DNA from: an uncultured Rhizobiaceae group bacterium
GTDB lineage: Bacteria > Pseudomonadota > Alphaproteobacteria > Rhizobiales > Rhizobiaceae
Assembly: GCA_938030595.1 (NCBI GenBank)
Contig: CALHIB010000002.1
Coordinates: forward strand, 1 to 40,377
DNA length: 40,377 nucleotides
Reading direction: 5' to 3'
This document shows, in pieces, positions 7,621 to 37,365 of this stretch. The notes beneath the pieces are model-generated. The model had not been told where the DNA came from. It worked only from the letters and a program-made list of their open reading frames with translations, and ran no database searches. The translations under genes and the position numbers were made by a program. The stretch's first letter is position 1; each line of letters starts with the position of its first letter.

Positions 7621-8292
7621 ATGAAAGTTTCTGAAGCTATAAATAATCGTATCTCTGTGAGGGCGTTTACAGATAAACCAGTCAGTCTTGAAACAATAAA
7701 ATCTGTTTTGGAAAAAGCCGCCAGATCCCCATCGGGTAGCAATCTACAGCCTTGGCGGATGGTGATTTTAACACCGCAGAAACTGGTTGACCTCAAAGCA
7801 CTAATGGAAAAGCGTTTGGCTGGAGAGGCAAATCCAAATGGGGACGCCTTGGAATATAATATCCATCCAGAGAACCTGAAAGAACCCTATAGAACGTCTC
7901 GCTATGAAGTAGGCGAGGATATGTATGCGCTACTTGGTATCAGTAGAGACGAAAAACCAAAGCGGCGAGAATGGTTTGCGAATAATTTTAGATTTTTTGG
8001 CGCACCTGCTGCGGTATTTTGTTTTGTTGATCGCACCATGGGCCCGCCACAATGGTCAGATCTTGGCATGTACCTTCAATCTGTCATGTTGTTATTTCAA
8101 GAAGAAGGCATAGACACATGTCCGCAGGAGTGTTGGGCAATGTATCCCAAAACCATCCATGAATTTTGTGAAATGCCAGATGAGCAAATGCTTTTTTGCG
8201 GAATGGCAATTGGCTTTAGGGATGAAAAACATCCTGTCAACAAACTCAGAACAAAGCGACTAAAAACCAACGAATGGCTTAAGGTACTCTAA
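7621..8292 (+). CDS. Nitroreductase family protein
   Basis: INNRISVRAFTDKPVSLETIKSVLEKAARSPSGSNLQPWRMVILT; GMAIGFRDEKHPVNKLRTKR C-terminus. Confidence 0.9.
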   Translation: MKVSEAINNRISVRAFTDKPVSLETIKSVLEKAARSPSGSNLQPWRMVILTPQKLVDLKALMEKRLAGEANPNGDALEYNIHPENLKEPYRTSRYEVGEDMYALLGISRDEKPKRREWFANNFRFFGAPAAVFCFVDRTMGPPQWSDLGMYLQSVMLLFQEEGIDTCPQECWAMYPKTIHEFCEMPDEQMLFCGMAIGFRDEKHPVNKLRTKRLKTNEWLKVL

Positions 8293-8705
8293 CCAAAAGT
8301 ATTGCCTACTTCACTGGGTGTTATTCGTATCAACCTAGACGTTTTTACTGCTGCATTACGATGTTTAACAGCGAGCTGATATTCTTCATCTTTAACCATT
8401 TCGATAAAAGCATCAGAATTTGGGTATTCTGCTATAAACGCTATATCCCAGCTTTCATCATAAGGCCCAATCAAGGTTAGGTCAAACTTGCCTGACCAAA
8501 CAATTCGCCCGCCTACCCTTTGGAATATTGGACCACTTTTGCGCCCGTAGGCCGCGTAAGCTTCCTGACCTGAAACCATGGTGCCATCATCATATGTAAC
8601 GATCTCATGTAATTTTACCAAATTGAGCATATGAATTGCAGTATCAGATTTATTCTCTGCAAAAGCCTTAAACGCTTCGCGCTCAGGATTGATGTATTTA
8701 GGCAT
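8289..8705 (-). CDS. DUF1330 domain-containing protein
   Basis: IHMLNLVKLHE, GGRIVWSGKFDLTLIGP, WDIAFIAEYPNSDAFIEMVKDEEYQLAVKHRNAAVKTSRLI pattern. Confidence 0.75.
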   Translation of the reverse strand: MPKYINPEREAFKAFAENKSDTAIHMLNLVKLHEIVTYDDGTMVSGQEAYAAYGRKSGPIFQRVGGRIVWSGKFDLTLIGPYDESWDIAFIAEYPNSDAFIEMVKDEEYQLAVKHRNAAVKTSRLIRITPSEVGNTFG

Positions 8706-8708
8706 TAA

Positions 8709-9236
8709 TTAGTTTCCAGTTGGAGTAAATTCCACATAACCAGTATCTTTATAATCACCTGCGGCATTGTCAAACTTTTGAAACGTCGAATTAAAACCAC
8801 CTGCTGGGTTACTGACAACAATTTGACGCATGCGACTTAAATTGCCCGTATCATTGTTCACAAAAGACGTAGATATTACGAGAGTTCCATTATCGTAATT
8901 GCTTGTTTCCTTTGTGACTTTAGAGTTCTTAAAAGGCGACAAGAAAGAACCAACAACCTGTCCATCAACAACAGAAAGCTTACCTTGAACCTCAGCCTTG
9001 CCTTGTGTCGTAGCGCAAACACCGACAATGCTAAGAATATTCTCTTCAGTACTAAAATTGTTATCAAGCTTACAACTGACACGTTCTTGTTGATTGCTAA
9101 GCTCCATTATCGCTTCACCACGACCTCGATACTCGCCATTCAATGTTTCAAGAAACTTAGCAGGTGTTTCTTCTGCATACGTGTTTCCACCAACAAGCGC
9201 GCTGGATAATGCAAATAATGCTATAATTTTTCTCAA
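8709..9236 (-). CDS. Small secreted protein, paralog of the 36774-37307 product; partner of the MMPL exporter
   Basis: Signal peptide (M/L)RKIIALFALSSALVGGNTYA; FLETLNGEYRGRGE...ERVSCKL...GVCA. TTG at 9236 chosen because the signal peptide begins there; the provided ORF extends to 9278. Confidence 0.7.
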   Translation of the reverse strand: MRKIIALFALSSALVGGNTYAEETPAKFLETLNGEYRGRGEAIMELSNQQERVSCKLDNNFSTEENILSIVGVCATTQGKAEVQGKLSVVDGQVVGSFLSPFKNSKVTKETSNYDNGTLVISTSFVNNDTGNLSRMRQIVVSNPAGGFNSTFQKFDNAAGDYKDTGYVEFTPTGN

Positions 9237-9246
9237 GGTAAAACTT

Positions 9247-11523
9247 TCATTCTTTTGTATTTTTGGTAGTAAAAACACGGCTTAGTGTCAGAATATTGGC
9301 AGGCAATATTGTAAGGTTCGTAAATAGGGCAATTACCAAAATTGCAATAATCAATGTTCCTATAATCGATAAAATCGGCAAAGCACTTGTTAATATGACC
9401 GCAGTAGATGCGCAGATAATCAAGGTACTTGCACCTAATGCTGGTGCCACTTCTAATATAGCGTCCCTTAACGCAGTCTGAACGTCCTTGCCTGTATTCT
9501 TTTCATTATTGTAAACATTGATTACATGCACTGCATTATCAATTGCGATACCAAATGCAAGCGTGAGAGCTACAACTTCTGTCACATTTATATTACCACC
9601 ACGCATGTAAATGATAAGCTCGGTCAATAAAATCGGGAATAGATTTGGTATCGCTGCAACAGCTGCAAAGAACATAGAACGCGTTGCAAGTCCGATCAGC
9701 AAAATACCAACCAAAACCGCGACCAACAAACTTGTACGAAGATCATTAATAATTGTCGTAAACTCCGTTGCCAGTAACACTGGAAACCCGGTAATAATGA
9801 TTTCATCAGCATAACCAAGCTTGCTTAAAGATTTTTCTATACGCTCGACCAAGACACTGGTTTCGGTGATTGATTGGCTTGATGGCGTTCTGAGAGAAAC
9901 GAGCATTCGGTTACCATCTTTGGAAATATATCCCTGCCGTGTAGTCTCAGGTGCTGTCTCCAGTTGAGAAGCAATCTTGGCAACAGTTTCATCTTCAAAA
10001 CTTTGCCATAAAGAATGAAGTGAAAATACTTTTGATGACTTGAAATCATCACTCAGAAGTTCTGTTACTTCGCCTAAGCGCTTTCTGTTAGTAGCCGAAG
10101 ACATTGCACCCTGCTCTACAACTGGAACAGAAAAGAAAATCAACGAACGTCCACCAAAAACTTCATTCGAAATTTTCTCAGCCTTAAGCGACTGGCTATC
10201 TGATGGGAGATAATCTGTAATACGGTAATCCGGCTGCAATGCTGCATGAACATAAAACAATGCAATAACGCTACCCAATGCAGCGAGACTTATCGCTAAA
10301 TGATTAGACTCATAAATTTTTTGCGAGAGACCACCAAAAGAAAACCCACCCTCTTTGTGTTGTTGTTGCTTGATTAATCCAACCTTCATAAGCCAAACAC
10401 CCAAGACCGGGACACCAACAATCACTGCCAAAAAGGCAAATATGACTAAAAATACACCAATCCATGCAAACTCAACTAAAGCCTCGCTAGAAGACAATGC
10501 AAAAGATGAAATAGCAAATGCTGTTGTTAGGGAAGTTAGTGCAGATGCAGGCCCAACTTTAAGAACCGCTTCCTTCAAATTAGCACGACGGCTATCAACG
10601 CCAGAACTCTCTGTCGAATTTAACTTGTTCCATCGATGATATAGCACAATCCCGTCTGCGTACGCCAAAACCAATGCTAGTGTAGGCAATATTGTGGTTA
10701 AATATGTTATTGGAATATTAAAAATACCAAACATACCAATTGACCAAATTGCCGTCAGCATTGGAGGAACAGCACATACAAAAGCAGCAATGATGCTCCT
10801 GAAGAACAACATCGCTATCAAAGCACCAAAAGCCAGTCCCATTAAAGTTAATCGAACTTGATCTTTGATTAGTGTATCAAGAATTGTAATGCCGATTGGT
10901 GTCAGGCCAGAATAATAAATCTCGAAGTCTTGAGGTGCATTTTCCTCTACGGATTTCTTTAAATTCGCAAACGCTTCAAAAGCTTTCTTGTCATTGCCTG
11001 CATTTATCCCCAAGTCCAATGCAACCAGCAATAACACACTATCTTGATCATCAGATATCAGGCTGGAAGCTTGAGGATAATCTCGAACCAAGCGCCCAAG
11101 CAAAGCCGTAGCCTCTGCATCATCTTTAATCTGGTTTGGAAAAAACTGCTTCAGCTCGCCCGTAATCGGATCAGGATCAGGGATAGAAAATAAAGACACC
11201 GCACTTGAAATGCCATCTGTAATAGCAAGCTCCAATTGCATAAAGCGTAAATCTTCAAGACCGGAAGCAGTGTTGATGCGTGGAGACTTGATAATAATAG
11301 CAACATCACGCGAAAAATTTCTGAAATCGCGTTTTTGTCGATCATAGTTTTTAAAGTTTTCCGATTGCTGCGGAACAACTGAAATCACATTACCGTTAAA
11401 CTTGACTGAAGGGATATATGAGGCAGCAACTACGGTAACAACAAGCAATACAATAGAGAATATCAATGGATATCTTAATGCAGCAACGCCAATGCGTTCC
11501 AGACCAAAGCCCAAACCTTTCAT
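9247..11523 (-). CDS. MMPL/RND family transporter
   Basis: MKGLGFGLERIGVAALRYPLIFSIVLL...; two large extracytoplasmic loops, two 6-TM blocks, LALAFGIAIDNAVHVINVYN; start chosen at MKGLGFG. Confidence 0.9.
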   Translation of the reverse strand: MKGLGFGLERIGVAALRYPLIFSIVLLVVTVVAASYIPSVKFNGNVISVVPQQSENFKNYDRQKRDFRNFSRDVAIIIKSPRINTASGLEDLRFMQLELAITDGISSAVSLFSIPDPDPITGELKQFFPNQIKDDAEATALLGRLVRDYPQASSLISDDQDSVLLLVALDLGINAGNDKKAFEAFANLKKSVEENAPQDFEIYYSGLTPIGITILDTLIKDQVRLTLMGLAFGALIAMLFFRSIIAAFVCAVPPMLTAIWSIGMFGIFNIPITYLTTILPTLALVLAYADGIVLYHRWNKLNSTESSGVDSRRANLKEAVLKVGPASALTSLTTAFAISSFALSSSEALVEFAWIGVFLVIFAFLAVIVGVPVLGVWLMKVGLIKQQQHKEGGFSFGGLSQKIYESNHLAISLAALGSVIALFYVHAALQPDYRITDYLPSDSQSLKAEKISNEVFGGRSLIFFSVPVVEQGAMSSATNRKRLGEVTELLSDDFKSSKVFSLHSLWQSFEDETVAKIASQLETAPETTRQGYISKDGNRMLVSLRTPSSQSITETSVLVERIEKSLSKLGYADEIIITGFPVLLATEFTTIINDLRTSLLVAVLVGILLIGLATRSMFFAAVAAIPNLFPILLTELIIYMRGGNINVTEVVALTLAFGIAIDNAVHVINVYNNEKNTGKDVQTALRDAILEVAPALGASTLIICASTAVILTSALPILSIIGTLIIAILVIALFTNLTILPANILTLSRVFTTKNTKE

Positions 11524-34519: not shown

Positions 34520-36757
34520 ATGATAAACGGTTTTGGGCTTCACAAACTTGGATTAATGGCACTGCGCAATCCGGTTATTAGTACAATATTATTGGCAATG
34601 ATTTCATTTGCTGCAATTATTGGCATTAACAAATTGGAGTTTTCCGGTGAGAACATTGAAATTCTGCGCGATGGCTCACAAGAATTAGCAGATTATGATG
34701 AATTGTTAGGACAATTCAGAAATTTTAACAATGACGCTGTCGTTCTGATGCGGATAGACAATCTATCAACAGTCGAGGGCATCGAAACTTTCCGCGATCT
34801 AAATTTTGAATTTCAACTGGATGAACGGGTAGAAAGTATTTTATCCATCTTTTCATTGGTCAAGTACGGTGGCCCGGATGAAGGATGGCAGTCTGCCTTA
34901 CCTGCAGAATATGAATCTGACGCAGAAGTATTGGAATCTTTAAAGCAACTGGCAGCTGATATTCCCAGTTCCCAATCGCTATTTAGTCCAAATTTCGATT
35001 CCGCTGTTATGGTAGTTTATACAAAAGCAGAAGCAACCAAGGACAAAAACGTTCAGGAAACCATGGACGGCCTTACAGCACTTGCAAAAGAGTTCAATTC
35101 CGAAACCGTAAATGTAACGATAGCAGGCCAACCGGCCATTAGAGCAGATCTAATCCATTCAATTGTTGCAGATTTATTACTGCTTGCACCGTTGGCATTT
35201 TTATTCTGTGCCGTACTTGCCTTTATTCTTTTCCGTCAACCGATTGCAATGCTATTGTGCGCCTTGCCTTCTCTCCTATCAATAGGTTGGTTCCTGGGAT
35301 CGGCAGGACTCACAGGTACGAGCCTGAACTTTTTAACAAATATTCTACCTGCACTTCTGATTGTTATTGTATTCGCTGACACGCTTCATTTGTACTTGAA
35401 ATGGCAAAAGCTAAGTCAAAAAAATGAAGACTATGTCGCCACACTAAAACAAGCCATTGTTGAAGTGGGGCCAGCTTGCGCATTGTCATCGGTTACAACA
35501 GCTGCTGCACTTCTTTCACTCTGTTTAAGTGGTAACAATGGGCTTTATGAATTAGGCATTATTGGTGCAATAGCTGTTTTTGGCGGATTCATATCTGTCA
35601 TTGTTGCATTCCCATTAGGTGCTTATTGGGCAAGTAAATCAGGCTTCAAACCCAAGAAAAGCATCGCCAGCAAAGTAGGCATCATTGCTGGCCCTGCCAT
35701 GAAGTTATTAAACTATAGAAAATCAGTGCTTTTTGTTGGGCTACTACTCTGCATTGCAGGCCTATATGCACATACAGTCATTGATAGCAGATTTCGCCTA
35801 ATCGATTATTTGGGCAACCAGTCCGAGGTTAGCCAAAGCGAGAACTACATTGATTCAACCTATTATGGTTCCACCCCATTATTTGCAATCGTCGATATGG
35901 ATCAGACCATTGCTCTGGACGATCCAAAAAATGAAGGGCGAGTTTATGAGACTATTGAAGCGGTAAAAGATGTATTCCCTGCCGGTTCGTTTTATTCACT
36001 AGCAGATTTTGCGGACGAAATAAAAAAGGCTGGAGGCAAAATCGATGAAAAGCTGATTGATGAACTACCGCGTTTCCTCACAAGTCGGTTTATATCCGAA
36101 GACAAATCACAAGTATTGGTAACCATCTTCTCATCCGCAAACCTTTCTGAAAGCGAAATGCAAGAACGTCTTGCAAACATGGACACAGCCTTGGAAAAAC
36201 GTTCTTTATCAGAAGTCGTAAAAATCACTGGCTACCCCGTACTTTCAGGCGTAGTAGCTCCACGGTTAATGGATAATCTGCGCATAAGTCTGCTTGTTGC
36301 GGTCTTGCTATCTATCATCTTGATTGCGCTGTCAGCTGGCTCAATTAAACTGGGCTTGGCATGCTTGGTACCCAATATGTTACCTATTGTATGTGTAGAG
36401 CTAATTTTATATCTTTTAGGCATACCGCTAAACATGTCGATTGCAGTTGCCTTGACCGTTGCATTTGGCATCGCAGTTGATGACTCGATACACATGCTTA
36501 ACCAATACATGTTAAACAGACGAGACCACGATAACTTACCTGCGGTTGCAGGCGCAGTGAAGGAAGTAACCCCTGCTCTCTTTTCAACCACGTTAATTTT
36601 ATCTGGTGGTTTAATTATAATGTGCTTTAGTACATTACCAGCCATGGCAGTCTTTGCACTTGTTGTTATAATGACACTTGTTCTTGCTTTCCTGGCAGAC
36701 ATATTTCAGTTGCCGGCATATCTTGCTATACTCAATGATAAGCGGTCTGAAAAATAA
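34520..36757 (+). CDS. MMPL/RND family transporter (paralog of 9247-11523)
   Basis: MINGFGLHKLGLMALRNPVISTILLAMISF...GQFRNFNNDAVVLM; VALTVAFGIAVDDSIHMLNQYM; same two-domain architecture. Confidence 0.9.
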   Translation: MINGFGLHKLGLMALRNPVISTILLAMISFAAIIGINKLEFSGENIEILRDGSQELADYDELLGQFRNFNNDAVVLMRIDNLSTVEGIETFRDLNFEFQLDERVESILSIFSLVKYGGPDEGWQSALPAEYESDAEVLESLKQLAADIPSSQSLFSPNFDSAVMVVYTKAEATKDKNVQETMDGLTALAKEFNSETVNVTIAGQPAIRADLIHSIVADLLLLAPLAFLFCAVLAFILFRQPIAMLLCALPSLLSIGWFLGSAGLTGTSLNFLTNILPALLIVIVFADTLHLYLKWQKLSQKNEDYVATLKQAIVEVGPACALSSVTTAAALLSLCLSGNNGLYELGIIGAIAVFGGFISVIVAFPLGAYWASKSGFKPKKSIASKVGIIAGPAMKLLNYRKSVLFVGLLLCIAGLYAHTVIDSRFRLIDYLGNQSEVSQSENYIDSTYYGSTPLFAIVDMDQTIALDDPKNEGRVYETIEAVKDVFPAGSFYSLADFADEIKKAGGKIDEKLIDELPRFLTSRFISEDKSQVLVTIFSSANLSESEMQERLANMDTALEKRSLSEVVKITGYPVLSGVVAPRLMDNLRISLLVAVLLSIILIALSAGSIKLGLACLVPNMLPIVCVELILYLLGIPLNMSIAVALTVAFGIAVDDSIHMLNQYMLNRRDHDNLPAVAGAVKEVTPALFSTTLILSGGLIIMCFSTLPAMAVFALVVIMTLVLAFLADIFQLPAYLAILNDKRSEK

Positions 36758-36773
36758 TGGCATGGAGGATTTA

Positions 36774-37307
36774 ATGCTGAAAAAACTACTCGTAGTAAGC
36801 GCTTTGTCACTTGGCGTGTTAGCGGTTCCAACCACAAGCGTAGATGTAAATGCTTCACCTCAAATTTTTGAGAACATGACAGGTAGCTGGCGTGGCAAAG
36901 GTAAAGTAAAGTCTGGGCCAAAGGCTAAAAACGAGTCCATTAGATGCAAACTTAAAAGCAGACCGGATGGTTCTTCAAAGTTAAAAATGACAGGCAACTG
37001 TGCCGTCAGTGGCTTTGTATTCAGCCTAAATGGTTTTATACAGCAAAATGGTGGTAAGAATTCTTACACTGCCAATATGTTTCGCTCATTTGCTAATTTG
37101 AAGCAAAGTAATTTTAGCGGCAAAAGAAGCGGATCAAAGATCAATTTCAGTTTCAAGGCGCGTGACCGCATTGGCAAACAAGATGTCTCTGCAAGAATAA
37201 CAATGAACAGCAAGAGTGCAAAAGCTTTTGACGTTGCTATTAGTCGTACAGACCCAAAAAGTGGCAAGATTTTCAGCGTTGGGACAATTAGATTCTCAAA
37301 ACGATAA
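36774..37307 (+). CDS. Small secreted protein, paralog of the 8709-9236 product; partner of the second MMPL exporter
   Basis: Signal peptide MLKKLLVVSALSLGVLAVPTTSVDVNA; IFENMTGSWRGKGKVK...ESIRCKL...GNCA; GGAGG SD just upstream of ATG. Confidence 0.8.
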   Translation: MLKKLLVVSALSLGVLAVPTTSVDVNASPQIFENMTGSWRGKGKVKSGPKAKNESIRCKLKSRPDGSSKLKMTGNCAVSGFVFSLNGFIQQNGGKNSYTANMFRSFANLKQSNFSGKRSGSKINFSFKARDRIGKQDVSARITMNSKSAKAFDVAISRTDPKSGKIFSVGTIRFSKR

Positions 37308-37328
37308 TTACATTACAAATTAAGCAAT

Positions 37329-37365
37329 AAAAAAGCCGTCTTGTTTTTCAAGGCGGCTTTTTTAT
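37329..37365. terminator. Rho-independent terminator, likely bidirectional, between the convergent small secreted protein and L,D-transpeptidase genes
   Basis: AAGCCGTCTTG(37333-37343)/CAAGGCGGCTT(37349-37359) with A-run on one side and T-run on the other. Confidence 0.88.

Follow-up and report, generated by a model that had tools for sequence, protein, structure and literature searches.

The window analysed here, a stretch of 40,377 nucleotides from contig 2 of an alphaproteobacterial genome recovered incompletely from a metagenome (2.16 Mb, 58.6% complete), carries two copies of a cassette that encodes an MMPL-type exporter followed by a small secreted protein (SM). We propose that the pair of copy 2, MMPL2 and SM2, is probably a proton-driven lipid export system with a calycin-like periplasmic carrier, and that exporter and carrier were duplicated as units. 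This reading draws on the linkage of the two genes, the MmpL3- and HpnN-like structures nearest to the exporter, the predicted calycin-like barrel of the small protein, the lipid-type genes beside related cassettes, the conserved candidate proton-relay residues and the precedent of the Ape lipid export system.

Two homologous cassettes in the window

Both genes of copy 2 are intact, and the span of 34520-37307 assigned to them in the preliminary description, from the beginning of MMPL2 to the end of SM2, was correct (Table 1). The SM2 reading frame as listed begins with a TTG at 36678; translation likely begins at the ATG at 36774, since GGAGG lies just 5' of it and it follows the MMPL2 stop after an intergenic gap of 16 bp. 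In the reading that we favour, MMPL2 and SM2 quite likely share an operon, and the terminator-like hairpin is common to SM2 and the convergent L,D-transpeptidase gene. Neighbours of copy 2 in the window are radC and this L,D-transpeptidase gene, those of copy 1 are genes for a DUF1330 protein and an M48 peptidase; L,D-transpeptidase and DUF1330 were named by Pfam, whereas sfsA, map, radC, M48 and nitroreductase genes were named by eye throughout. The DUF1330 gene (8289-8705), which comes after copy 1 in 7 of the 10 copy 1 loci read, is a possible third operon member, in copy 1 only.

Table 1. Features of the two cassettes, with positions in the window
Feature	Position	Strand	Remarks
MMPL2, MMPL/HAE3-type RND exporter	34520..36757	+	745 aa, intact; Pfam MMPL E=1.3e-21
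SM2, small secreted calycin-like protein (fold predicted)	36774..37307	+	177 aa, intact
SM2 Sec signal peptide, predicted, residues 1-27 (...VNA|SPQ)	36774..36854	+	hydrophobic stretch KD 2.5 at residue 6; low pLDDT 1-27
SM2 Cys58 codon	36945..36947	+	invariant in 24 cassette SMs; predicted strand 54-64
SM2 Cys76 codon	36999..37001	+	invariant; predicted strand 69-78
Terminator-like hairpin 3' of SM2	37327..37365		17-pair stem, T tail
MMPL1, copy 1 exporter	9247..11523	-	758 aa from ATG; Pfam MMPL E=2.6e-20
SM1, copy 1 small secreted protein	8709..9236	-	175 aa; TTG start probable
DUF1330 protein, third gene, downstream in copy 1	8289..8705	-	PF07045 E=2.9e-9

Copy 2 had been described as a diverged relative of the copy 1 cassette, and alignments of both proteins bear this out beyond chance. 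MMPL1 and MMPL2 align end-to-end over ~740 aa with 30% identity (331 bits, E=9e-107). SM1 and SM2 are 19% identical (E=5e-6), and their Smith-Waterman score of 76 is 7.5 sd over that of shuffled sequences (mean 34, sd 5.6, maximum 58, n=500). Profiles built from separate clade alignments of the two small proteins matched strongly over 157 columns (probability 99.5, E=1e-22); the program reports single-pair E-values without database scaling, hence the reversed-profile controls matter, and these gave E 0.004-0.15. The homology of the small proteins thus passed the profile-profile check proposed for it, and by sequence comparison the homology of copies 1 and 2 is confirmed for exporters and small proteins alike. 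The motifs quoted for the cassettes occur in both copies, except that the F of the small-protein motif occupies different alignment columns, the F of copy 2 aligning with an L in copy 1. Invariant columns across 24 cassette SMs include G-x-x-x-G-x-G and both cysteines.

Linkage, joint inheritance and origin of the duplication

Linkage of exporter and SM is near-obligate in the family. A search of its 151 genomes with the exporter profile returned 34 places in 23 genomes, of which two contig-end fragments and one locus cut before the downstream gene (G110:C85) were left out; in 30 of the 31 testable places an SM gene lies directly 3' of the exporter gene. The lone exception (L169) scores lowest among the full-length exporters. 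All fetched loci together hold 50 cassettes, with the exporter-then-SM order in 49 of the 50. The SM profile matched in 221 of 398 genomes of the order, and outside it in one other genome of a class sample and, marginally, once in a phylum sample. Many SM-family genes are orphans with no exporter, which argues that the SM fold does not require a pump. One such orphan lies in the window's own genome (L148, G000:C75, 5255-5788), in the vicinity of genes that by eye resemble folP, folB and folK; its type recurs across the family, often near folate-synthesis-like genes (by eye). The SM-less MMPL gene in L169 (60-4569) has neighbours whose products, judged by eye, resemble an alkane hydroxylase/desaturase and a protein of the wax-ester-synthase type.

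The trees of exporters and SMs, for which matching topologies had been named as the mark of co-evolving pairs, were built from 50 pairs in quick IQ-TREE runs, and their topologies agree. They have 23 of 47 splits in common, whereas 2000 label permutations gave no more than 3, and both contain a copy 1 clade (9 rows) and a copy 2 clade (12 rows) with support of 98-100. Exporter and SM distances correlate at 0.62 overall (permuted maximum 0.20), at 0.86 within copy 1 and at 0.83 within copy 2. No partner swap was seen in the two trees in any genome with both copies. The exporter tree joins copy 1, copy 2 and one long-branch row with support of 98; the SM tree does not resolve a clade of copies 1 and 2, and such a clade is not rejected (AU p=0.27). 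Further cassette lineages are present across the order. Since matching trees are expected from tight linkage alone, they speak for the pair being inherited together but are not in themselves evidence of physical specificity; a dedicated carrier for each exporter would fit them.

The original geometry of the duplication is apparently preserved in the related genome G001. On its contig C29 (L175, 3072-11441) nitroreductase, DUF1330, SM1 and MMPL1 genes run leftward, and after MMPL1 sfsA, map, radC and the N-terminus of MMPL2 run rightward; the remainder of MMPL2 and SM2 lies on contig C161, the contig ends overlapping by 129 identical bases. Copies 1 and 2 of G001 accordingly flank sfsA-map-radC in divergent orientation. 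In three genomes (G114, G065, G144) copy 1 is likewise the neighbour of map and radC, and of sfsA if that gene is there, and copy 2 adjoins these genes in G010, L007, L008 and the window; in the window and in G010, copy 1 is found ~20 kb away beside an M48 peptidase gene. Given the divergent arrangement in G001, which is apparently ancestral for the duplicates, the data are most simply explained if the two cassettes, as is probable, began as divergent neighbours around sfsA-map-radC and were separated later. This geometry and the concordant trees support the original suggestion of an ancient duplication kept as a unit, and we consider it well supported that copies 1 and 2 are ancient duplicates, each passed on as a unit.

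The exporter and its small partner

MMPL2 fits the MMPL pattern of two domains in a 12-TM RND architecture, the Pfam MMPL match falling into two stretches above the cut-off. Judged by its profile scores, it counts as a family relative but not as a strict match to the HAE3 subfamily, since the full-length match to TIGR00921 (E=1e-46) scores 159 bits, under the curated cut-off of 352 bits. The acidic residues D287 and D654 are kept in 46 and 47 of 50 homologues, respectively, and H658 in 49 of 50; these are candidate proton-relay residues in a region that would correspond to TM4 and TM10 of RND proteins. By sequence profile, the solved structures nearest to the exporter are MmpL3 (2e-21), MmpL4, HpnN, MmpL5, Dispatched and NPC1, with drug-efflux pumps far behind. 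An AF2 model of MMPL2 from 5 sequences reached a pLDDT of 53 and was kept out of the fold search. A tripartite drug-efflux RND system was considered and rejected, as neither a membrane-fusion protein nor an outer-membrane channel is encoded among the window neighbours of either copy.

Neither SM1 nor SM2 matched a named family in Pfam or NCBIfam, a search of PDB sequences with the SM profile gave nothing credible, and three cassette SMs show weak DUF1579 matches (best E=1e-4). The AF2 model of SM2, built from a 5-sequence alignment, is a ten-strand barrel with pLDDT mostly 70-90 after residue 27. Foldseek comparison of this model with the PDB returned nitrobindins, Rv2717c and Rv0813 with E values of ~1e-4, and nitrobindin 3wjf gave TM 0.63/0.71 (E 8e-5); the predicted fold is thus closest to nitrobindin-type calycins. 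Histidine is absent from SM1 and SM2, and the only two cysteines of SM2, Cys58 and Cys76, likely form a disulfide across a hairpin. A LolA or LolA-like profile matched neither SM1, SM2 nor any of the 24 cassette SMs, and a role of SM as a LolA replacement was discarded because canonical LolA is encoded elsewhere in 9 of 9 genomes tested. Mature SM2 carries a net charge of +24 and the periplasmic parts of MMPL2 one of -33; copy 2 SMs average +20 and their exporters, the most acidic, average -26. Charge complementarity of partners as a general feature was rejected, there being no correlation over the 50 pairs (r=-0.03).

The tight linkage of exporter and SM would also suit a structural partner, and we weighed whether SM, instead of carrying cargo, acts as an accessory adaptor in the assembly or stability of the exporter. 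The mycobacterial MmpL4/5-MmpS4/5 systems likewise combine an MMPL exporter with a small, beta-fold, disulfide-holding operon partner, and MmpS4 contacts all MmpL4 protomers (PMC12803245). MmpS4, however, consists of a TM helix anchor and a beta sandwich with a conserved disulfide (PMC12803245), whereas the N-terminus of SM2 looks like a cleavable signal peptide and its model predicts a closed barrel of the kind that binds ligands. Of the marks of an MmpS adaptor, gene adjacency alone agrees, and SM2 as predicted has neither the N-terminal TM anchor nor the 8-strand beta sandwich; we consider the adaptor role rather unlikely.

Proposed mechanism and possible cargo

In the lipid export that we favour, MMPL2 would use the proton gradient to lift a hydrophobic, lipid-like molecule out of the inner membrane and present it at its periplasmic side. 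SM2 would leave the cytoplasm via Sec, probably with one disulfide, fold as a calycin-like barrel, receive the molecule and ferry it across the periplasm to the outer membrane or surface. We infer that the cargo is a lipid and that it is handed over from MMPL2 to SM2; the pairs may be specific, and copies 1 and 2 presumably handle different cargoes.

Several observations count against this reading: no cargo gene adjoins either window copy, the type III polyketide synthase link described below occurs in a single genome, partners show no charge complementarity, orphan SM-family genes are common, and the SM2 model was built from 5 sequences. Cassettes of other families, in apparent operons and each in one lineage, offer clues. 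A four-gene run (L114, 4729-9098) encodes a type III polyketide synthase, an ICMT-like methyltransferase, MMPL and SM, and is a candidate operon for phenolic-lipid synthesis and export; a second run (L115, 5125-9623) encodes KAS III, an outer-membrane barrel protein, MMPL and SM. Furthermore, a fatty-acid desaturase gene lies directly beside three cassettes of one genus (L117, L119, L127), and a gene for a START-like protein directly beside another (L140). These neighbours suggest lipids derived from polyketides or fatty acids. A general association with type III polyketide synthases was rejected, the enzyme being encoded in 116 of 398 genomes of the order and beside a cassette in 1.

The same neighbours, being lipid-synthesis and not resistance genes, count against the idea that the unit pumps out toxic hydrophobic compounds and uses SM as a scavenger or sensor in the periplasm. 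Such a pump would fit the match of the exporter to the HAE3 (hydrophobe/amphiphile efflux) profile, but the nearest structures are transporters of envelope lipids and sterols, and we hold this function to be improbable. Nor do we give much credence to SM being the exported cargo protein itself. Dispatched-type RND proteins release lipid-modified proteins, and the adjacency of the SM gene, the secretion of its product and its fast evolution would suit such a role; SM2, however, has its own Sec-type signal peptide, without a lipobox cysteine, and orphan members exist without any pump, so that this reading is very improbable. Least credible is an HpnN-like function in moving hopanoids, and identity with the HpnN transporter was rejected: despite the weak HpnN similarity of the exporter, MMPL2 scores 63.8 and 7.3 bits against the HpnN equivalogs, far under their cut-offs of 751.85 and 1100, and squalene-hopene cyclase was found in none of 9 genomes with a cassette (among them 6 that are >=90% complete and <=5% contaminated).

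Relation to known systems and significance

The nearest functional precedent for the proposed lipid export, by analogy and with an unrelated carrier, is the aryl polyene lipid export system of E. coli, in which the RND exporter ApeM works with the LolA-like ApeL and the LolB-like ApeN (PMC8253772). There, too, an RND-family exporter is paired with a small chaperone in the periplasm, and the two have been proposed to bring lipid to the outer membrane, but ApeL is LolA-like, whereas SM appears to be a calycin-like barrel without a LolA match, and the cassette has no LolB-like partner. The sterol transporters BstA-BstB-BstC of Methylococcus (PMC10942540) also combine an MMPL/RND inner-membrane protein with periplasmic and outer-membrane lipid binders; they differ in having three components with other periplasmic folds, and MMPL2 scores 32.5 bits against BstA, for a cut-off of 1400 bits. 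The predicted ten-stranded barrel of SM2 resembles nitrobindin and Rv2717c-type calycins, from which it differs in being secreted, in its two cysteines and in the lack of the haem-ligand histidine; moreover, the SM proteins have no Pfam nitrobindin match.

For Rhizobiales, the literature searched contained no description of a small periplasmic protein that partners an MMPL exporter. New here is an MMPL exporter with a partner that is calycin-like by prediction and lacks a family name, a class of partner not found in that literature. Little is known of how MMPL-type RND lipid exporters move cargo through the periplasm of Gram-negative bacteria, and the cassette offers a compact system of two genes that hardly ever occur apart and are spread across one bacterial order. 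Since paralogous pairs occur within one genome, carrier binding, hand-over and partner specificity become directly testable. Tentatively, and short of regarding it as established, the cassettes may represent a Hyphomicrobiales module for lipid export across the envelope, in which an MMPL exporter is served by a dedicated calycin-like carrier in the periplasm and which was duplicated and specialised for different lipids.
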